From Fusobacterium perfoetens (GTDB lineage Bacteria > Fusobacteriota > Fusobacteriia > Fusobacteriales > Fusobacteriaceae): 52,442 nt of DNA. The stretch lies in the NCBI RefSeq assembly GCF_021531475.1, contig NZ_JADYTX010000012.1, positions 1 to 52,442 on the forward strand. The letters run 5' to 3'. Shown here piece after piece: positions 1-27,502 of this stretch; within the stretch, counting starts at the first letter, position 1; every line of letters begins with the position of its first letter. Position numbers and translations under genes: made by a program. The notes beneath the pieces are model-generated. The model worked only from the letters and a program-made list of their open reading frames with translations. It did no database searches and was not told the origin of the DNA.

Positions 1-11
1 ATAACAGTTTG

Positions 12-35
12 TAGGGGAGTTCTGATACTCCCCTA
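12..35. other. 9-bp inverted repeat near the window edge
   Basis: Positions 12-20 and 27-35 are perfect 9-bp complements around a 6-nt loop. No clear T-run follows on either strand. A weaker pairing (GGCTA with TAGCC, about 43-85) lies between it and the flavodoxin stop codon and, read on the minus strand, is followed by ATTTTT. It may be part of the 3' end of the flavodoxin operon. Confidence 0.35.
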
Positions 36-81
36 TAAAAATGGCTATTTATCAACTGTTTGTTGTGACATAGCCTTAATT

Positions 82-585
82 TTAATAAAATTCTTTTGTA
101 ATTTCTTTAATCCAAGCAAATACTCTATCAGGAGTTTCATCATCTTGGTTATTTTCATCAAGGGCAAGACCTACGAATTTATCTCCGATAACAGCTTCGC
201 TCTCTTTATAAAGATATCCTTCATTAGAAGTCATTCCGATAACTTCTCCACCTCTTGCTGTAACTATATCATATAGTTTTCTCATACCTTCAACAAAAGA
301 TTCTCCAAAAGTAAATTGGTTTCCAAGTCCTACAAGAGCGACTTTCTTATCAGTAAAATCCATATTTTCAAGTTCACTTCTATGGCTTTCCCAATCTCTT
401 TGTAATTCTCCAACTCCATAAGTAGGTGTTACAAGGATAAGATTTTTATAATTTTCAATCTCTCCAATACCGTCAGCCACATTAAATATTTCGTGGTCGA
501 TTTTTCTTAAGTTAAAATCTATTTCATCTGCAATAGCCTCTGTTTTACCAGAAGTTGTTCCATAAAATACTCCTATTTTTTCCAT
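82..585 (-). CDS. Flavodoxin, long-chain type
   Basis: This is a 167-residue FMN-binding electron carrier, probably serving low-potential electron transfer in an anaerobe. The phosphate-binding loop GTTSGKT is at residues 9-15. The aromatic FMN loop TPTYGVGELQRDW (53-65) and the region around LGNQ near residue 86 follow in the usual order, and the C-terminal ENNQ segment is typical of long-chain flavodoxins. It is the last gene of a minus-strand set: the tcdA stop codon is 14 nt upstream and a TTTCTCCTTT complement supplies the ribosome site. A second, only moderately similar flavodoxin lies at 36548-37024, so the organism keeps at least two. Its redox partner cannot be told from the sequence. 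Confidence 0.93.
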   Translation of the reverse strand: MEKIGVFYGTTSGKTEAIADEIDFNLRKIDHEIFNVADGIGEIENYKNLILVTPTYGVGELQRDWESHRSELENMDFTDKKVALVGLGNQFTFGESFVEGMRKLYDIVTARGGEVIGMTSNEGYLYKESEAVIGDKFVGLALDENNQDDETPDRVFAWIKEITKEFY

Positions 586-599
586 TTTTTTCTCCTTTA

Positions 600-1307
600 T
601 TATTTTAAATTACAAATATCTTTTATAACTTCACCAGCTATAATAAGACCTGCCACTGATGGCACAAAAGAAATACTTCCAACATTCACAGATTTTTCTC
701 TGCTTCCCTCTTCATTAATAGGTTTTATTGGATTTTCCTTTGAGTATAAAACTTTTAATTTTTTAATTCCTCTTGCTTTTACCTCTTTTCTAATTACACG
801 AGCCAAAGGGCAAACAGAGGTTTTTGATATATCAGCTATCTCCAATAAAGTTGGGTCAAGTTTGTTTCCAGTCCCCATTGATGAAATTATTGGGATACCA
901 AGTCTAGCACTATTTTCTATAATGCTAAGTTTAGAAGTGACCATATCAATAGCATCAACTATATAAGTATAATTTTTATTTTCAAAAAATTTATCACTGT
1001 TTTCTTTTAGATATTTTTCGTTGATTTTATTGATTTTAATATCAGGATTTATAGATTTAGCTCTTTTTTCGATAAGGTCAGTCTTTCTTTCTCCAACAGT
1101 ATCCATTGTGGCTATAATCTGTCTGTTAATATTAGTTATATCCACAGTGTCGTAGTCAACGATTGTTAATTCTCCAACACCACCACGAACTAATCCTTCA
1201 ACTACATATCCTCCCACTCCTCCAAGTCCAAAGACAAGTACATGGGAATTTTTAAGTTTTTCTAAATTTTCTTTTCCAATTAATAATTCTTCTCTTTTAA
1301 ATATCAT
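600..1307 (-). CDS. tcdA: tRNA threonylcarbamoyladenosine dehydratase (ThiF/E1-like family)
   Basis: The 235-residue protein has the ATP-binding GLGGVGGY motif at residues 27-34, the following VDYD acidic site, and the conserved blocks DAIDMVTSK, MGTGNKLDPT and CPLARVIRKE. These are typical of TcdA (YgdL/CsdL), which cyclises the t6A modification at tRNA position 37 to ct6A using ATP. It is slightly shorter than the E. coli enzyme. Its start overlaps the 3' end of the acyl carrier protein gene by 11 bp and it is followed closely by flavodoxin, so the three are probably co-transcribed. The usual partner genes csdA/csdE are not here. A different E1-like activity on the neighbouring carrier protein is conceivable but less likely, because the TcdA-specific blocks are good. 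Confidence 0.88.
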   Translation of the reverse strand: MIFKREELLIGKENLEKLKNSHVLVFGLGGVGGYVVEGLVRGGVGELTIVDYDTVDITNINRQIIATMDTVGERKTDLIEKRAKSINPDIKINKINEKYLKENSDKFFENKNYTYIVDAIDMVTSKLSIIENSARLGIPIISSMGTGNKLDPTLLEIADISKTSVCPLARVIRKEVKARGIKKLKVLYSKENPIKPINEEGSREKSVNVGSISFVPSVAGLIIAGEVIKDICNLK

Positions 1308-1548
1308 TTTTCTCCAATTTTTTATCAGTATGTTCTATAAGTTCTTTAAAAGTTATAATATGTATTGCCTCAGCGTAAGGGATAGACACTCCAAATCCAA
1401 CTTCAATCTCACTTATAATATTTGCTATATCAAAAGAATCAGCACCTAAATCTTTGAATAAATCTGCATCATCTACGATAGATGAATAGGGGATTTCAAG
1501 TTGTTCCTCTATTATTTTTTTAATTCTTTCTATTTGATTTAATTCCAT
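1297..1548 (-). CDS. Acyl carrier protein (atypical, DSF motif)
   Basis: This is a small acidic four-helix carrier protein. The phosphopantetheine attachment serine is Ser38 in GADSFD, where most fatty-acid ACPs read DSL. The ATG at 1548 is preferred over an in-frame GTG at 1557 because AGGAAG lies 8 nt upstream of the ATG, giving 83 residues. The reading frame runs 11 bp into tcdA, so translation of the two genes is probably coupled. The sequence after helix II (PYAEAIHIITF) differs from a housekeeping AcpP, so this may be a dedicated carrier rather than the main fatty-acid ACP. No acyl-transferase or synthase gene is adjacent to show its job. Confidence 0.85.
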   Translation of the reverse strand: MELNQIERIKKIIEEQLEIPYSSIVDDADLFKDLGADSFDIANIISEIEVGFGVSIPYAEAIHIITFKELIEHTDKKLEKNDI

Positions 1549-1702
1549 AGATTTCACTTCCTTAATAATTTACTGCTAATATATTATATAATATTTAGAG
1601 AAAAATTTAAAGTATAAATTCCATAATTGTTATGATTAAAGAGTTTTATATAATTAAAAATTACTCCATATTCCAGAAATCTGATTTAGTGAATAAGAAA
1701 AT

Positions 1703-1850
1703 AAAAAATTACTCCAGACTTCAATAAGTTGATTAACTACGGCTTATCTCACTAAAAGCATAAAACTCACTACGCTCAAACAGTTATGCTTTTTAGCGTT
1801 CGATAATTCCTTGTTAATCTAACTTCTTTCAGTAATTTTCGTAATTTTTT
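1703..1850. repeat. Long-hairpin intergenic repeat, copy A
   Basis: This copy fills most of the 334-bp gap between the ACP gene and the AbrB-like gene. The ends are imperfect inverted repeats (AAAAAATTAC near 1702 and GTAATTTTTT at 1841-1850). The arms continue as ...GTTGATTAAC / GTTAATCTAAC. A central perfect 10-bp stem AAAAGCATAA (1754-1763) / TTATGCTTTT (1784-1793) encloses a loop ending CGCTCAAACAG. An extra ATTAAAAATTACTCC start-like segment occurs at about 1654, so the left end may be duplicated. Copy B is at 18275-18494. No protein is encoded. Confidence 0.7.
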
Positions 1851-1891
1851 AAATTTTCTTTATTAGGTAGAATGTAACTTTTAATATAATT

Positions 1892-2962
1892 TTAAATAAA
1901 GAAATCCTTAATTATATTAATAATTATGGGATAGATTGCCACCACAGTTACAAGTCTAAAAAACTGCATTGTGGCTACCTTAGGAGTATCAGCTCCAAGT
2001 TCACTAGCAATTATAGATATATCAGACATTCCACCGGGAGCTGTTGCAAAAAGAGAAGTCTCTACACTAAAATCAGTTATCTTATAAATTAAAATTCCAA
2101 GTAAAAGATTCATCAAACAAAATCCCATAATTACAATTCCAACAGGAATAAAAATTTCTTTAAGGCTTACAATATCTCCAAGTGTCATCTTAGCTCCAAT
2201 TAAAGCTCCAGCTAATACTTGGATAAGTTGTCTTAGTCTTAGTGGCATAAAAGCGTTGCTAGAATAAATATTATAAATAGCAGTAGCCACCATTGATAAA
2301 GTCATAGCACCAGATGGAATATTTAATATTTTTCCAATAACTCCTCCGATAGCTCCTATAACTAAAGTTATAAATACCTTTACAAATTTTTCTTTTTGGC
2401 TAAGATATAAGAAAGTATCTTCTTTGGAAGTATCAACTTTAGGAACAGTATTTTTTATATTTCCTTTTGATTTATTAAAGTTTTTTACAATTATTTTTAT
2501 AAGTGCAGGGATAAGACTTACCACAGATATAAGACGTACCATTTGAAGTAAGGCTACCTTAGATGAGTCAGCTCCAAAATCATAAGAGATAATTGTCATA
2601 TCAGTTAAACCTCCGGGAGCTGTTGCAAATAGAGCTGTTACCATATCAAGTGGTGTAAACTTATAAATAAAATATCCCATTAGAAAATTAACAATTCCCA
2701 TTAAAATTACCATAATAAGACTTGGCAAGAAAATATTTTTAAGTCCTTTTACATCATTGGCTGTAATTTTTGCACCAATAAATGTTCCAGTAGAGATTTG
2801 GGCGATAATTTTATATGATTGTGGTAAATCAGCATTATTTGTTAATATGTTAAAAATAGCCACAGCAAATAAAGAGCCTATCATAGCACCTGCAGGAACT
2901 TTAAGTTTAAGAGCTATCATAGCACCGATAAGTCCTACCAATAAAGTAATTATAAAAAACAT
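1892..2962 (-). CDS. AbrB-family membrane protein (duplicated, putative transporter)
   Basis: This 356-residue, highly hydrophobic protein has two homologous halves. Each half contains GAM(I/T)-x-S, a FIGAK/LIGAK segment and a strongly conserved ATAPGG(L/M)(T/S)D(M/I) motif (first copy residues 113-122, second near 310), followed by ADxxKVAxxQxxR. This is the pattern of the AbrB/AidA-like membrane family (unrelated to the AbrB DNA-binding protein). Members are thought to be transporters or regulators of ammonia oxidation, but the substrate is unsettled. About ten membrane segments are expected. The gene is divergent from the VOC gene and has no operon partner, so its role stays open. Confidence 0.85.
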   Translation of the reverse strand: MFFIITLLVGLIGAMIALKLKVPAGAMIGSLFAVAIFNILTNNADLPQSYKIIAQISTGTFIGAKITANDVKGLKNIFLPSLIMVILMGIVNFLMGYFIYKFTPLDMVTALFATAPGGLTDMTIISYDFGADSSKVALLQMVRLISVVSLIPALIKIIVKNFNKSKGNIKNTVPKVDTSKEDTFLYLSQKEKFVKVFITLVIGAIGGVIGKILNIPSGAMTLSMVATAIYNIYSSNAFMPLRLRQLIQVLAGALIGAKMTLGDIVSLKEIFIPVGIVIMGFCLMNLLLGILIYKITDFSVETSLFATAPGGMSDISIIASELGADTPKVATMQFFRLVTVVAIYPIIINIIKDFFI

Positions 2963-3067
2963 ATCCCCTCACCCCTTTGTATACACCGCTTTTAATATAA
3001 TTATACTACAAGAAAATACAAAAATAAAGTATAATATAGTAAAATAAAATGATTTTGGAGGATAGTT

Positions 3068-3457
3068 ATGTTAAATATAGAAAATATTCATCATGTTGCA
3101 ATAATAGCGTCAGATTACAAAAAATCAAAGGAGTTTTATACAAAAATTTTAGGTTTCCAAATAGAAAAGGAAACTTACAGAGAAGAGAGAGACTCTTATA
3201 AATTAGATTTAAAAATAAATGGACTTTATCAAATAGAGCTTTTTTCTTTTCCAAATGCTCCAAAAAGAGTTACTAACCCAGAGGCAAGAGGTCTAAGACA
3301 TCTAGCTTTTCAAGTGGCTGACTTAGAAAAAGAGGTAGAAGAGTTAAATAAAAATGGAATATCAACAGAGCCAATAAGAGTTGATGAGGTTACAGGAAAA
3401 AGATTTACTTTTTTTAGAGATCCAGATGATTTACCACTAGAATTATATGAAAAATAA
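3068..3457 (+). CDS. VOC-fold (glyoxalase/bleomycin-resistance family) protein, YaeR/GloA2-like
   Basis: The 129-residue protein is built from two beta-alpha-beta-beta-beta units. The metal-ligand pattern of the vicinal oxygen chelate fold is visible: His in IHHVAI near residue 8, Glu in YQIELF, His in LRHLAF and Glu in LELYE at the C-terminus. The whole layout (IxHVAI, SKEFYTxxLGF, DPDxxPLELYE) matches the small glyoxalase-I-like proteins annotated GloA2/YaeR. Its substrate is not known from sequence. GGAGG lies at the usual distance from the ATG. It stands alone and shares a hairpin terminator with the convergent MBL gene. Confidence 0.88.
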   Translation: MLNIENIHHVAIIASDYKKSKEFYTKILGFQIEKETYREERDSYKLDLKINGLYQIELFSFPNAPKRVTNPEARGLRHLAFQVADLEKEVEELNKNGISTEPIRVDEVTGKRFTFFRDPDDLPLELYEK

Positions 3458-3535
3458 AAAAAGAACTGTTGCATTTTTTAGAAGTAGGTAATAAAAAGTT
3501 TAATCTACTTTCTAATTTTGCAACAGTCCTTTTAA
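3456..3535. terminator. Long bidirectional terminator hairpin
   Basis: AAGAACTGTTGCA (3461-3473) pairs with TGCAACAGTCCTT (3519-3531) with one mismatch, and the arms continue inward through TTAGAA-GTAG / CTAC-TTTCTAA. A T-run follows on the minus strand (A-run at 3455-3462) and a shorter T-run on the plus strand. It separates two convergent genes and can serve both. Confidence 0.75.
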
Positions 3536-3536
3536 A

Positions 3537-4364
3537 TTAAAATATTTTTATCTCATCTCCAGTATTTAAAGAACAGCTTAAGAAATCCTTGTCATTTTTA
3601 ATAAGCTCAACTATTTTTTCACCAGAACAGTGAGAGAAACCAAGAAGTTTAACTCCAAGTTTTTTAAGTTCTACTAAAGTTTTAGCAAGACGTTCATCAC
3701 TAGCCTCTACAAGATGTGTTCCCCCATAAACTGCACATATATCCATATTAAATCTTTCTTTTATAGTTGATAGTATATTTAAAATCCCTGGGTGAGAGCA
3801 ACCTGTAACTACAACAAGTCCCTCATCAGTTTTTATAACCAAAGATATCTCATCACGAAAATCATCTATTTGAATTTTTCCATCTCTTTCCACTACAAAT
3901 CTAGCTGGACTTTTTTCAAAATCATAATTTCTTTTAAAATTACCAACTAAATAAACATTTTCTTGTAGCTCTAGCATATCATCACAGATAATATGTTCAA
4001 TCCCATTACCTTCTAAGAAATCTTTATTAAATCCACAACCAAGATAAGTGTATTTCATTCCATCAAAAGAGTATTTAGGGTCAAAATAATTTTTTCCAGT
4101 GATAAGTTTTTTGATTTTAAAATTGTCTACCAAATCTAAAAATCCACAAGAGTGGTCATAGTGAGAGTGGCTACAAATTACAGTATCGATTTTTGATAAG
4201 TCGATATTCATTTTTCTAGCATTTTTTATAAATTTATCTCCACCGCTACAATCAAATAGATAAGATTTATCATCAACAGTCACAAAAAAAGATAATCCGT
4301 GTTCAAAAGCTAAAGCACGATTTCTCGAACCAGTATTTTCCAATAAAGTTTTTATAGTTATCAT
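3537..4364 (-). CDS. MBL-fold metal-dependent hydrolase
   Basis: This 275-residue metallo-beta-lactamase-fold protein has the metal motif HSHYDH at residues 66-71, preceded by a strand ending in FDCSGG and followed by TGCSHPG and GGTHL. These match the family annotated as 7,8-dihydropterin-6-methyl-4-(beta-D-ribofuranosyl)-aminobenzene-5'-phosphate synthase-related hydrolases. The start at 4364 is chosen because GGAGG lies just upstream; a longer frame reaches 4400 without a ribosome site. The true substrate is unknown. It is monocistronic and converges on the VOC gene. Confidence 0.88.
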   Translation of the reverse strand: MITIKTLLENTGSRNRALAFEHGLSFFVTVDDKSYLFDCSGGDKFIKNARKMNIDLSKIDTVICSHSHYDHSCGFLDLVDNFKIKKLITGKNYFDPKYSFDGMKYTYLGCGFNKDFLEGNGIEHIICDDMLELQENVYLVGNFKRNYDFEKSPARFVVERDGKIQIDDFRDEISLVIKTDEGLVVVTGCSHPGILNILSTIKERFNMDICAVYGGTHLVEASDERLAKTLVELKKLGVKLLGFSHCSGEKIVELIKNDKDFLSCSLNTGDEIKIF

Positions 4365-4952: not shown

Positions 4953-6962
4953 ATGAAAAAAGAAGAGAGAATAAAAGAGCTAAGAGAACTTATAGAAAAA
5001 TATAGTTACTATTATTATACATTAAACGAAAGTCTTATCTCTGACGTAGAGTTTGACAAGCTTTTAAAAGAGTTAGAAGAGTTAGAAAAAGTAAATCCAC
5101 AATATTCGATGTTTGACTCACCAACAATGCAAGTAGGGTCAAGCCTTAAGAATACAAAATTTAGTAAAGTTACTCATAAAGAAAAGATGTTAAGCCTTTC
5201 TAATAGTTATAATATTGGAGAGATAGAGGATTTTATAAAAAGAGTGGATAAACTTTTGGAAAATAGAAAAAAACCAAGCTATGTCCTAGAAGTTAAACTA
5301 GACGGACTTTCAATTAGTGTAACCTATAAAGATGGAAAACTTGTTCAAGGGGTTACAAGAGGAGATGGAGTAATTGGAGAGGATGTAACAGAAAATATTT
5401 TACAAATCCAAAGTATTCCAAAATTCTTAAAAGAAAAAATTGATATAGAGGTAAGGGGAGAAATCGTTTTACCAATCAGCAAATTCCAAAAAATAAATGA
5501 AAAAAGATTAGCTAATGGTGAAGAGATATTTGCAAACCCAAGAAATGCGGCGAGCGGTACATTAAGACAACTTGACCCAGAGATAGTAAAAGAAAGAGGT
5601 CTTGATTGTTATTTCTATTTCGTTGTTGGTGGAGAAAAATATGGTATCAAAACTCATAGAGAGGCTTTTGATTTCATAGAAAAAATTGGTCTTAAGACAA
5701 CAGGAATTGACGAAGTATTAACATCAGTTGAAGAGATAGATAAACGTATTGAGTATTGGAAAGATGCAAGAGAGAAACTAGACTATGAAACAGACGGAAT
5801 GGTTTTAAAAGTAAACGAGATAGAGTATTGGGAAGTTTTAGGAAATACTACAAAATCTCCTAGATGGGCAATAGCATATAAATTCCCAGCAAAACAAGTG
5901 TCAACAAAACTTTTAGGTATTACTTGGCAAGTTGGAAGAACTGGAAAAGTTACACCAGTGGCAGAACTTGAAGAGGTAGAAGTATCAGGTAGCCGTGTAA
6001 AAAGAGCTAGTCTTCACAACTTTGATGAAATAGTTAGAAAAGATATTAAAATTGGAGATAAAGTATTTATAGAAAAGGCAGCTGAGATTATACCGCAAGT
6101 TGTAAAATCTATAAAAGAACTTAGAACTGGAGAGGAACAAGAGGTTTTAGCACCTACAACTTGCCCAATCTGTGGAACAGCACTGGAAAAAGAAGAGGGG
6201 CTTGTGGATCTAAAATGTCCTAACCCAAGTTGCCCTGCAAAAGTTCAAGGAAGATTTGAATATTTTGTATCTCGTGATGGAATGAATATAATAGGTCTTG
6301 GTCAAAAGATAGTTGAAAGATTTTTAGAGCTAGGTTACTTAAATGATGTAACAGATATTTATAGACTTTCAGAACATAGAGAAGAGATGGAAGCCTTAGA
6401 AAAAATGGGTAAAAAAAGTGTAGAAAATCTTTTAAACTCAATCGAAGAAAGTAAACAAAGAGAGTATTCAAAGGTTTTATACTCACTTGGTATCCCAGAA
6501 GTTGGAAAATTTATGGCAAATCTTTTAGCTGACGAAAGCGGTAGCATAGATAGACTTATGGAAATGACAAAAGATGAGCTACTTATGATAAATGGAGTTG
6601 GAGAAAAAGTGGCTGATTCTATTATAAATTTCTTTGCAAGTGAAGAAAATTTAGAGATAATAGAAAAATTAAAAGGCTTTGGTTTAAACTTTTCTGGGGA
6701 AAAACAGTCTAAGGTAGAGAAGAACGTTTTTGAAGGAAAAACTTTTTTAGTCACTGGAAAGCTAACTAAATTTACAAGAGAGGGGATAAAAGAGGAGATA
6801 GAGAAGTTCGGAGGAAAAAATCTATCTGCTGTAAGTAAAAACTTAGATTATTTAATAGTCGGAGAAAAAGCTGGAAGTAAACTTAAAAAAGCCCAAGAAA
6901 TTGGTACTATAAAAATAATTACTGAAGATGAATTTTTTAACATTGTAAGTGAAAAAGAGTAA
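4953..6962 (+). CDS. ligA: NAD-dependent DNA ligase
   Basis: This enzyme seals 3'-OH/5'-phosphate nicks during replication and repair using NAD+. At 669 residues it has the normal length. The domains are in order: the Ia NAD-binding domain, the adenylation domain with active-site Lys115 in KLDG, the OB fold, a four-cysteine zinc site near 402-430 (CPICG...CPNPSC), helix-hairpin-helix repeats (about 480-570) and a C-terminal BRCT domain (about 590-665, with FLVTGKL). An extended -10 (TGATATAAT ending at 4920) precedes it. secA follows under its own promoter. Confidence 0.98.
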   Translation: MKKEERIKELRELIEKYSYYYYTLNESLISDVEFDKLLKELEELEKVNPQYSMFDSPTMQVGSSLKNTKFSKVTHKEKMLSLSNSYNIGEIEDFIKRVDKLLENRKKPSYVLEVKLDGLSISVTYKDGKLVQGVTRGDGVIGEDVTENILQIQSIPKFLKEKIDIEVRGEIVLPISKFQKINEKRLANGEEIFANPRNAASGTLRQLDPEIVKERGLDCYFYFVVGGEKYGIKTHREAFDFIEKIGLKTTGIDEVLTSVEEIDKRIEYWKDAREKLDYETDGMVLKVNEIEYWEVLGNTTKSPRWAIAYKFPAKQVSTKLLGITWQVGRTGKVTPVAELEEVEVSGSRVKRASLHNFDEIVRKDIKIGDKVFIEKAAEIIPQVVKSIKELRTGEEQEVLAPTTCPICGTALEKEEGLVDLKCPNPSCPAKVQGRFEYFVSRDGMNIIGLGQKIVERFLELGYLNDVTDIYRLSEHREEMEALEKMGKKSVENLLNSIEESKQREYSKVLYSLGIPEVGKFMANLLADESGSIDRLMEMTKDELLMINGVGEKVADSIINFFASEENLEIIEKLKGFGLNFSGEKQSKVEKNVFEGKTFLVTGKLTKFTREGIKEEIEKFGGKNLSAVSKNLDYLIVGEKAGSKLKKAQEIGTIKIITEDEFFNIVSEKE

Positions 6963-22900: not shown

Positions 22901-23022
22901 ATATTATGAAGAAGATATATTTAAGAATTTTGACCAAAAAAAGTGAAGAGTTAGTTAAAAAGCTTAAGGAAATAGAGCAAAAACCTGAAGAAAAAAATCT
23001 TGACAAAAAAGTAAAGTTATAG
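19984..23022 (+). CDS. UvrD/Rep-like superfamily 1 helicase with extra N- and C-terminal domains
   Basis: This 1012-residue protein has an SF1 helicase core: Walker A GSAGSGKST (177-185), Walker B DEIQD (373-377), the IDEIKGLEYDNV motif near 520 and YVGITRCKKNL near 560. Before the core, residues 1 to about 110 (ENRYEFRVNNGDRIFF...ILYSTHDG) resemble a RelE/ParE-like toxin fold. After it come TPR-like helices (about 620-790: EEWFEEGKRLYNVENYEEAQKAFEMAG) and ankyrin-like repeats (about 815-900: NKLTPLYNSLKYKDIDIIDMLLFLGA). The fold assignments outside the core are by eye. Its function could be DNA repair, RNA quality control or defence. It has a weak promoter and is the only gene between two divergent regulatory regions. 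Its last codons contain the carAB promoter. Confidence 0.85.
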   Translation: MKFLIRENFFKNIKKEKINEIEKNINYFYQEILKNINNIRNIPKGFWIKKINGVENRYEFRVNNGDRIFFSLDRRQDEEEKITFILYSTHDGGVRKGKKAQIKDVREFDIDRSEFVEESFEIPQEVYLDYNQVISYEVKDDGEFIKISDSKNKYFYYYLNDEQYDALKENTPLLVAGSAGSGKSTITIRKILNLEEYREVYGVKKIAYFTGNKLLKESIEEQYNLFREKDTEKITEFYTPREFYKKVLKVDTRKIVRLKKFKEFLAFSFPDRKKMKIEDFNIYFEIMGILKGLMFDKKPDNWNRDLTKKLIPFDEYTSLNKSYSLLSFEEKEFIYRIAEKYEEWKFENELYDMNDLAVKSINSNIKYDFLVVDEIQDFTEVEIYFMASLIKNPVNILLAGDIHQMINFNSFSFERLRNYYFTKNIRNQEVILSKNYRNSKDIVELANFLTDLRKEYIGNLGVKDYKENFIVDKGKITLMKPDYELLKNIQKDVKFAILVSSKEEKYNLDRFSDVHMRVFSIDEIKGLEYDNVICLNLATTNLFAWKKIFNGEVKRDQRYRKYFNLFYVGITRCKKNLIIMEDKIQGNLLLEKIKDFITEANQENKEILSKEINISNKEEWFEEGKRLYNVENYEEAQKAFEMAGCPTWILEKNIEEDIENGDYKLALDKIKENKLDKKKKHYENLIIDTTLKREEYIKSLIFSVETFDTPYRYVEIKKIFLEKMNEEFFTKKELDRAVAIFSKKQENNILGEIYEKQKNYTLALNFYKKSANYIGIAKMRRKILEEKFSEKKDLDSKIKIVEELLGKKDINSYDKNKLTPLYNSLKYKDIDIIDMLLFLGAKKNVKVQGKYDILTYIAKENFENAMELYRYFYDKDYEYIFSPKVESPVEFSLKNRNRELTDMIINMKLMSDDYKSVETNPIDVCISTYQVKYFKLFLNKLDLNFLSDKFFEEIFKIILGLKSDDVLGKRKKDIMKKIYLRILTKKSEELVKKLKEIEQKPEEKNLDKKVKL

Positions 23023-23028
23023 TACAAT
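23000..23028 (+). promoter_or_regulatory. carAB promoter, overlapping the helicase stop
   Basis: Perfect TTGACA (23000-23005), 17 bp, TACAAT (23023-23028). The -35 lies inside the 3' end of the helicase gene. Transcription should start near 23035, upstream of the leader ORF. Confidence 0.9.
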
Positions 23029-23058: not shown

Positions 23059-23157
23059 ATGAAAAGGTTAGACGGTTTTTTTAATGATAATAATTCTATA
23101 TTTTTATTAAAAAAAGATAATCTTTTTGATTTTTTAATTTTTCAATTTGAGATATAA
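23059..23157 (+). CDS. carAB leader peptide (32 codons, U-rich)
   Basis: This short ORF has a near-perfect ribosome site (AGGAGG, 23049-23054) and an ATG at 23059. It encodes 32 residues, seven of them Phe, because the mRNA holds runs of 5-7 U (for example 23076-23082, 23123-23127 and 23130-23135). The TAA stop at 23155-23157 lies inside the 5' arm of the terminator at 23151-23185. This is the arrangement of UTP-sensing leaders such as E. coli pyrBI: slow transcription of U-runs at low UTP lets the ribosome catch up and prevents terminator folding. The peptide itself probably has no function. Confidence 0.78.
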   Translation: MKRLDGFFNDNNSIFLLKKDNLFDFLIFQFEI

Positions 23158-23185
23158 CCATTTTTAGTGGTTATATCTTTTTTTT
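23151..23185 (+). terminator. carAB attenuator (intrinsic terminator in the leader)
   Basis: GATATAACCA (23151-23160) and TGGTTATATC (23168-23177) form a perfect 10-bp stem with a 7-nt loop, followed by T8 (23178-23185). It sits between the leader ORF and carA, 21 bp before the carA start codon. Confidence 0.93.
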
Positions 23186-23206
23186 ATAAATTTTGGGAGG
23201 TCTTTA

Positions 23207-24241
23207 ATGAAAGGAAAATTAATTCTTGAAAATGGAAAAGTTTTTGAAGGAAAAATTTTTGGTGAGTTAGCAGATACTGTTGGAGAGATATCTTTTAATA
23301 CTGGAATGACAGGATATCAAGAAATGCTTACTGACCCAGCAAATCACGGAATGATGATTGCTATGACATATCCAATGATAGGAAACTATGGAATAAATAC
23401 TGAGGATATGGAATCTGATAAAGTTCAATTAAAAGCATTAATAATTAAAGAAGATGCAAAATTACCAAACAACTTTAGATGTGAAATGACTTTAGATGGA
23501 TTCTTAAGACAATACAACGTAACAGGATTTAAAGGAATCGATACAAGATATCTTACTCAAATCGTAAGAGATAACGGTTCTATGAAAGCTATAATAACAG
23601 CTGAAGATTTAACTAAAAAAGAAATTCAAGAAAGATTTAAAAACTTCTCAAATAAAAATGCAGTGGCAGAAGTAAGCTCAAAAGAAGTTTATGAAATTGC
23701 TGGAGGAGAAAAAAGAGTTGGAGTGATAGATTTAGGAGTAAAAAACAGCACTCTTAACTATATAAAAGACGCTGGATTTACAGTAGTAGTATTCCCATAC
23801 AATACAAAAGCTGAAGACATCTTAGCTCAAAACTTATCAGCACTTGTTGTATCAAATGGACCGGGAAATCCAGAAGATTTAGTTGAAACTCAAAATACAG
23901 TAAAAGAATTAGCTGGAAAAATGCCAATATTTGGAGAAGTTTTAGGACTTCAAGTAATTGCTTTAGCATTCGGTGGAAAAACAGCAAAATTAAAATATGG
24001 TCACAGAGGTGGATACCCTATTAAAAATCTTGCAACAGGAAAAGTTGTTATAACTTCTCAAAATGCAAGCTATGTAGTAGAAGAAATTCCTGCTGGATTT
24101 GAAATGACTCATCAAGGAATCAACGTAAAAACAATAGAAGGAATGAAAAATGAAGCTTTAAAAATAGTTGGTGTTCAATATATGCCTGATTTATATAAAG
24201 ATTCAAAAGATGTTTTTGAAAACTTTTTAAAACTTGTTTAA
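23207..24241 (+). CDS. carA: Carbamoyl-phosphate synthase small subunit, glutaminase triad lost
   Basis: The 344-residue protein aligns over the full length of CarA. The N-terminal domain (FNTGMTGYQE, TYPMIGNYG) and the class I glutamine amidotransferase domain (NGPGNPED) are both present. However, the nucleophile elbow, normally GxCLGHQ, reads GEVLGLQ with Val245 in place of Cys. The motif normally HPE reads Met326-Pro-Asp328, so the catalytic His and Glu are also replaced. GHRGANHPV and QNHGY are altered too (GHRGGYPI, QNASY). The frame is intact and codon use is normal. It cannot hydrolyse glutamine by the known mechanism, so it probably serves as a structural subunit for ammonia-dependent synthesis by CarB, 54 bp downstream. 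Confidence 0.95.
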   Translation: MKGKLILENGKVFEGKIFGELADTVGEISFNTGMTGYQEMLTDPANHGMMIAMTYPMIGNYGINTEDMESDKVQLKALIIKEDAKLPNNFRCEMTLDGFLRQYNVTGFKGIDTRYLTQIVRDNGSMKAIITAEDLTKKEIQERFKNFSNKNAVAEVSSKEVYEIAGGEKRVGVIDLGVKNSTLNYIKDAGFTVVVFPYNTKAEDILAQNLSALVVSNGPGNPEDLVETQNTVKELAGKMPIFGEVLGLQVIALAFGGKTAKLKYGHRGGYPIKNLATGKVVITSQNASYVVEEIPAGFEMTHQGINVKTIEGMKNEALKIVGVQYMPDLYKDSKDVFENFLKLV

Positions 24242-24295: not shown

Positions 24296-27200
24296 ATGTT
24301 AGATAAATCAATAAAGAAAGTATTAGTAATAGGTTCAGGACCAATTATAATAGGACAAGCAGCAGAATTTGACTATTCTGGTACTCAAGCTTGTGAAACT
24401 TTAAAAAGCGAAGGAATAGAAGTTGTACTTATCAACTCAAACCCAGCTACAATAATGACTGATAAAGCTGTTGCAGATAGAATATACATAGAACCAATCA
24501 CAGCAGAATTTGTTGAAAAAGTAATAGCAAAAGAAAGACCAGACTCCTTACTTGCTGGAATGGGAGGACAAACTGCTTTAAACCTTGCTGTTGAATTAAC
24601 AGAAAAAGGAATATTAGAAAAATATGGAGTTAGAGTAATCGGAACTTCTGTTGAATCTATCAAAAAAGGTGAAGATAGAGAAATATTCAGAGAAACAATG
24701 GAAAAAATCGGAGAACCTTGTATCGAAAGTGAAATCGTAGAAAGCTTAGACCACGGTTTACAAGTTGCAAGAGAAATCGGATACCCAGTTGTAGTAAGAC
24801 CAGCTTATACAATGGGAGGAACTGGTGGAGGAATTGCTTATACTCCAAAAGAATTAGAAGAAATCTTATTAAAAGGATTAAAAGTTTCAAGAGTTGGACA
24901 AGTATTAATTGAAAAATCAATCCTTGGTTGGAAAGAGATAGAATATGAAGTAATGAGAGATAGAAACGGAAACTGTATTACAATCTGTAATATGGAAAAC
25001 GTTGACCCAGTAGGTATTCACACTGGAGACTCAATAGTTGTTGCTCCTACACAAACTTTATCTCACAAAGAAGCTGTAATGCTTAAAAAATCAGCTCTTA
25101 AAATATTAGACGAAGTTGGAGTAGTCGGAGGTTGTAACGTACAATTTGCTCTTCACCCAAAATCAATGAAATATGCAATAATAGAAATTAACCCAAGAGT
25201 ATCTCGTTCATCAGCTCTAGCATCAAAAGCTACTGGATACCCAATCGCAAGAGTTTCTACAAAACTTGCTTTAGGATACACTCTTGATGAAATTATAAAT
25301 GAAGTTACTGGAGAATCTTACGCTTGTACAGAACCAACAATTGACTATATAGTTGCAAAAATTCCTAAATGGCCATTTGACAAATTTAGAAATGCAAATA
25401 AAGTATTAGGAACAAAAATGATGGCTACTGGAGAAGTTATGTCAATAGGAGATAACTTTGAAGCAGCATTCTTAAAAGGATTAAAATCTCTTGAAATCGG
25501 AAGATTTAACCTTGAACACCCAGCAGTTAAAAAACTTACAATGGCAGAACTTAAAAAAGCAGTTGTAAGACCTGACGACGAAAGAATCTTCGTTGTTGCT
25601 GAAATGTTAAGAAGAGGATATATAAAAGAAAAATTACAAAAAATTACTGGTATAGATAAATTCTTTATGGAAAAAATCGAATGGCTAGTAAGACAAGAAG
25701 AAATCTTAAAGAAAACTAAATTTAAAGATTTAGATCCAGAATACTTAAGAAAATTAAAGAAAAAAGGATTCTCTGATAAAGGTATAGCAGAACTTATGGG
25801 AGTTACTGAAGATGACATCAGAGGAAAAAGATTAGAACACCACATTGTACCAGCTTATAAGAGAGTTGATACTTGTGCTGCTGAATTTAAAGCACAAACT
25901 TCTTACTTATATTCAACATATGATGAACACGACGAAGTAGAAGTAGAAAACAAAAGAAAAATAATCGTAATAGGTTCAGGGCCAATAAGAATTGGACAAG
26001 GAATTGAGTTTGACTACTGTACAGTTCACTCAATCAAAACTTTAAAGAAAATGGGAATTGAAAGTATAATCATCAACAACAACCCAGAAACAGTTTCAAC
26101 TGACTACAACACTGCTGACAGATTATATTTTGAACCATTAATTCTTGAAGATGTATTAAATATAATAGAAAAAGAAAAACCAGAAGGAGTAGTTCTACAA
26201 TTTGGAGGACAAACAGCAATAAAACTTGCTAATGCACTTTCTGATAGAGGAATAAAAATCCTTGGAACATCAGCTGAAAAAATCGACGAAGCTGAAGACA
26301 GAGAAAAATTTGAAGCTATGATGGAAGAGTTAGATATAAAAAGACCAAAAGGAAGAGCAGTTTGGGATATCCAACATGGAATAGAAATAGCTAATGAAAT
26401 TAAATATCCAGTTCTTGTAAGACCTTCTTACGTTCTTGGAGGACAAGGAATGGAAATCTGTCACGATGAATACAACCTTGTAAAATATCTTGAATCATCA
26501 TTTGACAGAGACCCTGAAAACCCAGTATTAATCGACAAATACTTAAACGGAATCGAATTAGAAGTAGACGCAATCTGTGACGGAGAAGACGTATTAATCC
26601 CTGGAATAATGGAACACTTAGAAAGAGCAGGAGTTCACTCTGGAGACTCTATAACAATCTATCCTCAACAAAACTTATATGAAGGAACAGAAGAAAAAGT
26701 ATTAGAAATCACTAAGAAAATTTCAAGAGCTTTAGAAACAAAAGGTATGATGAACATTCAATTTATCGCTTACGAAAATGAGCTATATGTAATTGAGGTT
26801 AACCCAAGATCATCAAGAACAGTTCCATATATTTCTAAAATATCTGGACTTCCTGTAATAGAAATTGCTACAAGAATCATCTTAGGTGAAACATTAAAAG
26901 AAATAGGATATGGAACAGGAATCTACAAAAAACCAAACTTAGTAGCTGTAAAAGTACCAGTATTCTCAACTGAAAAATTATCAGAAGTTGAAGTATCATT
27001 AGGACCTGAAATGAGATCAACAGGAGAAGTTTTAGGAGTTGGACATACAGTAGAAGAAGCAATCTACAAAGGATTACTTGGAGGAAAAAGAGTTAACAAA
27101 GTTTCTGGTAAGAAAATACTTCTTACTATAAGAGATAAAGATAAAGAAGAATTTTTACCAATAGTTAAAGAATTAATCGAACTTAACTGTGAAATCTTCG

Positions 27201-27502
27201 CAACAGCAGGAACAAATAAATTCTTAGCTGAACACGGAATTAAATCAGAAGTAGTAAGAAGAATAGGAGAAGAAGAACCAAATATCTTAACAATTCTTAT
27301 GAACAAAAAAGTTGACTTATTAATCAACACTCCAACAAAAGCAAATGACGCTCAAAGAGATGGATTTAGAATGAGAAGAACTGCCACTGAATATGGTGTA
27401 GAAGTTCTAACATCAATAGATACATTAAAAGCTGTTATTAAAATGGAAAAAGAACATTTAGAAGAAGATAAATTAGAAGTATTCGATATTTCTAGAATCT
27501 AG
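24296..27502 (+). CDS. carB: Carbamoyl-phosphate synthase large subunit
   Basis: This subunit makes carbamoyl phosphate from bicarbonate, two ATP and ammonia, feeding pyrimidine and arginine synthesis. At 1068 residues it has the usual length. Both ATP-grasp halves are present: [17 protein letters not shown] near residue 13 and [16 protein letters not shown] near 560, each followed by a VRPxYxxGG(T/Q)G motif and an xExNPR(V/S)SR motif. The C-terminal MGS-like domain (about 930-1068), which binds UMP and ornithine in E. coli, is kept. With CarA's glutaminase lost, ammonia must reach the first active site from solution or by another route. The gene is in the same transcript as carA and ends in a strong terminator. 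Confidence 0.97.

Follow-up and report, generated by a model that had tools for sequence, protein, structure and literature searches.

Among the closest described systems is the E. coli-type CarAB enzyme (CPS II), a two-subunit carbamoyl-phosphate synthetase (CPS). For E. coli CPS, ammonia is described as a substrate only when its concentration is very high and likely unphysiological (PMC6245113), and variants whose tunnel has been blocked or perforated no longer use glutamine but use external ammonia normally (PMC4655335). Gly359 of E. coli CarA is one of the tunnel residues. The animal enzyme of the urea cycle, CPS I (CPS1), is a single fused polypeptide with N-acetylglutamate as its essential activator, and it retains a glutaminase-like domain that is catalytically dead. 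Textbooks confine operation on free ammonia to this form of the enzyme. In human CPS1, Cys is described as the only residue of the catalytic triad to have been replaced, by Ser, and the structure shows Gln318 in place of E. coli Gly293, blocking the glutamine-side ammonia tunnel (PMC4655335). A third system, the small archaeal ATP-grasp CPS of Methanobrevibacter smithii, consists of two copies of a 41-kDa synthetase and lacks a CarA partner (PMC6022934). It resembles the system reported here in being prokaryotic and in being described as a functional unit without a glutaminase.

We analyzed a 52,442-nucleotide stretch of Fusobacterium perfoetens DNA (the window; contig NZ_JADYTX010000012.1 of assembly GCF_021531475.1) that carries a carAB operon (Table 1). 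The carA gene is an intact open reading frame of 344 codons whose product can be aligned with E. coli CarA over its full length, matches both PF00988 and PF00117 across its two domains, and scores 351.5 bits against TIGR01368, the glutamine-hydrolyzing CPS small subunit (cut-off 307.35). An AlphaFold2 model (pLDDT 86, pTM 0.87) gave query-normalized TM-scores of 0.91–0.93 to E. coli CarA and 0.88–0.91 to human CPS1, which predicts that the CarA fold is kept; the solved structures matched by the model include 1m6v, the G359F mutant of E. coli CarA. The homology in sequence and fold along the whole of CarA that membership of TIGR01368 implies is therefore met.

Table 1. Features of the carAB locus (positions in the window).
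Feature	Position	Strand	Basis
Sigma-70-like promoter TTGACA-17-TACAAT, at the end of the upstream helicase gene	23000..23028	+	11/12 consensus matches; consensus only
Leader peptide ORF MKRLDGFFNDNNSIFLLKKDNLFDFLIFQFEI, 32 codons, U-rich, stop codon within the terminator stem	23059..23157	+	Similar leaders at related carAB and at the genome's own pyrB
Intrinsic terminator between leader and carA (putative attenuator), 14-pair stem, T-rich tail	23149..23187	+	Fold of -15.2 kcal/mol
carA, small subunit with degenerate glutaminase domain	23207..24241	+	ORF, TIGR01368/Pfam matches, alignment, AlphaFold2 model
CarA N-terminal CPSase domain, residues 1-150	23207..23656	+	PF00988, 158 bits; omega 0.02-0.12 among degenerate CarAs
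Val245 codon replacing catalytic Cys269 (E. coli numbering)	23939..23941	+	Alignment
One-residue deletion site at tunnel residue Gly293	24008..24016	+	Alignment; role of Gly293 from PMC4655335
Met326-Pro-Asp328 codons replacing the His353-Pro-Glu355 motif	24182..24190	+	Alignment
Three-residue deletion site, Pro358-Gly359-Pro360 (tunnel loop)	24194..24199	+	Alignment
carB, full-length synthetase subunit	24296..27502	+	ORF, family match, 23 checked residues kept
Part of carB tracking degenerate carA in trees, approximately residues 90-540 (carboxyphosphate and oligomerization domains)	24563..25915	+	Trees; boundaries approximate

Two subunits, domain layout, fold, checked CarB residues, operon order and the link to pyrimidines are all shared with the E. 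coli-type enzyme, whereas the glutaminase site is not. In the alignment, Cys269, His353 and Glu355 of E. coli CarA correspond to Val245, Met326 and Asp328 of the window protein. Because the change from Glu to Asp is conservative, we regard Cys and His as the decisive losses. The substrate pocket is altered as well (S47 to A, H272 to L, N311-H312-G313 to N-A-S), and two tunnel segments are shortened, by one residue at Gly293 (GHRGGNHP to GHRGGYP) and by three at Pro358-Gly359-Pro360 (HPEAWPGPSD to MPDLYKD). The window CarA thus has neither the catalytic Cys and His that define an active class I glutamine amidotransferase (GATase) nor intact tunnel segments at Gly293 and Gly359. The initial annotation had claimed that the triad was lost in an intact CarA frame and that the substrate-site blocks QNHGY and GHRGANHPV were changed. 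Both claims held, the first with the qualification that one of the three replacements is conservative, and the two deletions add that the tunnel has been remodeled. The absence of nucleophile and base and the altered pocket and tunnel are shown at the sequence level only; that the protein no longer hydrolyzes glutamine is inferred from them.

A second, intact carA in the same genome would have refuted this reading, but none was found in the 2.02 Mb assembly, which is 99.99% complete and contains a single carA. Above the cut-off, the remaining class I GATases are GuaA and a PuuD-like hydrolase, in each of which Cys and His-Pro-Glu are intact, and a weak third match sits in a DJ-1/PfpI-like frame. 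The intact triad of GuaA rules out a general loss of glutamine amidotransferases and indicates that the loss is specific to CarA. Nor does it stem from a want of glutamine, since glutamine synthetase is present, as is glutamate dehydrogenase (gene names in the genome context come from reading translations, without a family search for each). We also considered that a different glutaminase or amidotransferase might dock on CarAB and provide its ammonia in trans. Nothing direct supports this idea, although GuaA and the PuuD-like GATase do have intact triads. Against it, the genome yielded no spare CarA, TrpG, PabA or HisH-like GATase, and the CarA tunnel segments needed to carry the ammonia are deleted, so that we consider it very unlikely.

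The check on the triad across the phylum that the initial annotation had proposed was made on 87 CarA sequences containing the glutaminase motifs, all from Fusobacteriota. Cys, His and Glu are all kept in 78, and Cys and His are both absent in nine, so the state is not unique to the window genome. Four of the nine are Val-type with a V/M/D triad (G000, which is the window, G034, G036 and G024), and four are Ser-type with S/M/D or S/L/E (G030 and second copies in G026, G027 and G029). The ninth, from G048, has Gly/Asn/Glu (Cys to Gly, His to Asn, Glu kept) and no tunnel-loop deletion (L130, L155), and it probably represents a less advanced, apparently independent loss. The V/M/D triad in three genomes besides the window's, at 81–86% identity, rules out a sequencing error or a chimera. 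In G026, G027 and G029 the Ser-type carAB lies 10–15 kb from a normal carAB, and each has a full-length carB. Only a degenerate copy was seen in the window genome, G034 (86% complete), G036, G024, G030 and G048. A scan of named genomes with a degenerate profile recovered one degenerate relative, a Fusobacterium MAG (L071, corresponding to G034), and seven other matches with normal motifs; no relatives were found on viral contigs.

Some further observations were made in these genomes. Between the normal and degenerate carAB of G029, G027 and G026 lie genes that we named by eye as an M20-type amidohydrolase and a YfcC/AbgT-like transporter (L051-L056), and G028 has this pair close to its only carAB, a normal one. 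A genome of another family carries, as its second copy, a CarA-CarB fusion of 1432 amino acids or more, whose frame is open at the start of the fetched stretch (L045, G067:C80:7052-12110, positions 1-4299) and whose glutaminase motifs are intact. A histidase match was absent in all five single-copy Val- or Ser-type genomes tested and present in four of five tested genomes with normal carA, numbers too small to interpret.

Pairwise omega values, estimated roughly by the Nei-Gojobori method, bear on whether the degenerate CarA is still maintained. It could be a decaying pseudogene, unneeded because CarB alone can use ammonia and simply not yet lost. In favor of decay, the degenerate GATase domain evolves several times faster than that of normal CarA: omega is 0.13–0.36 in degenerate pairs and 0.03–0.08 in normal pairs, with 0.20 in the most distant normal pair and one near-identical pair uninformative. 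Against it, all nine degenerate copies have an intact reading frame, constraint on the N domain matches that in normal CarA (omega 0.02–0.12), omega of the GATase domain remains well below 1, and the four Val-type copies all share V/M/D without variation. CarB omega does not exceed 0.13 in degenerate pairs. A pseudogene is therefore unlikely. The degenerate CarA is kept, and constraint on its former glutaminase domain is relaxed without being neutral, as expected of a scaffold. A different reason for retention would be that the former glutaminase domain now serves as a regulatory domain for another small molecule. The fold and the domain are kept under selection and the triad replacements are invariant among Val-types, both of which would fit. 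However, pocket positions drift among the Val-types (L/E/H/H at 272, A/T at 312), and no other part of the operon evolves as fast as the GATase domain; we regard this explanation, too, as unlikely.

Phylogenetic analysis was used to ask how the degenerate copies are related. In the CarA tree, Val- and Ser-types were joined with support of 100/99, and still with 96/95 when catalytic and pocket columns were left out; AU tests rejected tying the Val- and Ser-types to their resident normal relatives (p = 0.0075 and 0.009). Trees of CarB residues 1-360 and 1-400 recovered the same degenerate clade (support 100/99 and 99/97), although an alternative placement of the Ser-type was not rejected (p = 0.084). 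In contrast, residues 601-1073 follow the resident copies, and a single degenerate clade was rejected for them (p-AU = 8.6e-9). At third positions, the two carB genes of G029 hardly differ in most distal-half windows, the pattern that gene conversion would leave. In a comparison of 21 rows, positions separating all degenerate from all normal operons fell only in CarA, CarB 100-399 and CarB 500-599; these CarB stretches correspond approximately to the region that is described as making contact with the small subunit (PMC6245113). When outgroups were added, several of the degenerate-type CarB states also appeared in E. coli or in other genera and outlying Fusobacteriota. They may therefore be ancestral and not adaptive, which weakens any reading of the shared CarB substitutions as clear adaptations.

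The G048 copy argues against a single origin of all nine degenerate CarAs. Both halves of its CarB cluster with those of its own genus (support 98/93 and 96/94), which makes its loss look independent, whereas its CarA was placed with the other degenerate CarAs at 91/97. We do not trust the latter placement because the G048 CarA branch is very long; by the same token, long-branch attraction could inflate the grouping of Val- and Ser-types in CarA. We conclude that loss of the glutaminase probably arose at least twice within Fusobacteriota.

In the window carB begins 54 bases after carA, and all 23 catalytic and gate residues checked are kept, so that the operon meets the description of CPS I as an inactive glutaminase-like domain beside an intact synthetase, with inactivity inferred from residues. 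The search for carbamoyltransferases in the genome gave only PyrB, whose gene heads a pyrBKDFCE cluster forming a complete pyr operon, and this indicates that the carbamoyl phosphate goes to pyrimidines. As a side observation, the 99% complete genome G021 has a normal carAB and yet no PF00185 carbamoyltransferase match. Neither an OTCase nor a carbamate kinase was found in the window's genome, and a weak arcC match proved to be ProB (glutamate 5-kinase); with PyrB alone found, an arginine or carbamate-kinase pathway was rejected as sink or source of carbamoyl phosphate. CarAB might also be run backwards, in a catabolic direction, to gain ATP from carbamoyl phosphate. The failure to find a carbamate kinase could be cited for this proposal. 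Against it, no catabolic carbamoyltransferase was found to supply carbamoyl phosphate, CPS is described as irreversible (PMC6022934), and the attenuator of the operon is of the biosynthetic type. We consider this alternative all but excluded.

The control region upstream of carA resembles the E. coli pyrBI attenuator, in which a terminator lies within the leader peptide gene (PMC4824070). Similar leader ORFs precede nearly all related carAB operons that we read, degenerate or normal. The pyrB gene of the window's genome (L101, pyrB at 6589) has the same layout of promoter-like site, leader and terminator, and pyrB of G036, G030 and G026 is also preceded by similar leaders. No Rfam match to a known riboswitch was obtained anywhere in the window, the carA leader included. 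The claim that a full-length CarB stands under elaborate control thus held, given the promoter-like site, leader peptide and terminator before carA. That expression of carAB is set by a pyrBI-like attenuator is inferred from this layout, and control by UTP is likewise an inference.

The explanation that we favor is that CarAB is likely an ammonia-fed CPS for pyrimidine synthesis, with CarA retained for a structural or allosteric role beside CarB; ammonia use is inferred, with no activity data. Fusobacterium ferments amino acids and releases ammonia. In the proposed scheme, CarA would no longer hydrolyze glutamine, as the sequence-level loss of nucleophile, base, pocket and tunnel suggests, and would be retained as the partner of CarB, a role inferred from the patterns of selection and co-inheritance. 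Free NH3, which is plentiful in a cell that ferments amino acids, would enter CarB at the carboxyphosphate site and bypass the former glutaminase site, perhaps at the contact between CarA and CarB, where the tunnel loops of CarA are deleted. CarB would then make carbamate and carbamoyl phosphate as usual and feed PyrB, and the putative attenuator would set the level of carAB expression. Since unmodified E. coli CPS needs very high ammonia, the degenerate enzymes should have a better Km for ammonia or reside in ammonia-rich cells. What speaks against the ammonia-fed reading is that no specific CarB change has been shown to improve ammonia use and that activity data are lacking. Of the functional claims in the initial annotation, retention of CarA for structure is supported by purifying selection on the N domain, the non-neutral GATase domain and co-inheritance with the ammonia-receiving half of CarB, and an ammonia-fed CPS is supported as an inference only, no activity having been measured. 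A bolder reading, which taken as a whole could as easily prove wrong as right, is that this is an obligately ammonia-dependent bacterial CPS whose CarA is a structural subunit that opens the ammonia route and does not feed it. Such an enzyme would have arisen two or more times within Fusobacteriota and moved from species to species as a recombining unit made up of carA and the ammonia-receiving half of carB, and in some species it would work beside a normal glutamine-dependent copy.

Compared with CPS I, the ammonia-fed CarAB proposed here would share a retained but dead glutaminase-like domain and ammonia as the likely donor. The tunnel is altered at the Gly293 position in both, and the Cys to Ser change of human CPS1 is exactly that of the Ser-type relatives. 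Unlike CPS I, the window carA and carB are separate bacterial genes, more than the Cys of the triad has been replaced, there is no evidence of control by N-acetylglutamate, and the product serves pyrimidines and not urea. The two have independent origins, as the initial annotation had also supposed, a claim that our results support.

The open-access literature that we searched contained no description of a bacterial CarA without the triad. As far as that literature shows, a conserved and recurrent loss of the glutaminase in bacterial CPS is new, its functional side being inferred from sequence alone. Because TIGR01368 accepts the window CarA above its cut-off, automatic annotation would misname the protein, and any model of how Fusobacterium uses nitrogen that relied on this label would be in error. 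A review generalizes that glutamine is the physiological donor; a CarA that is maintained although its nucleophile and base are lost and its tunnel is disrupted contradicts this. Where one genome has a dead carAB close to a live one, the question can be tested directly. Degenerate CarAB would be a bacterial parallel to the transition from CPS II to CPS I, including, in the Ser-types, the Cys to Ser step.
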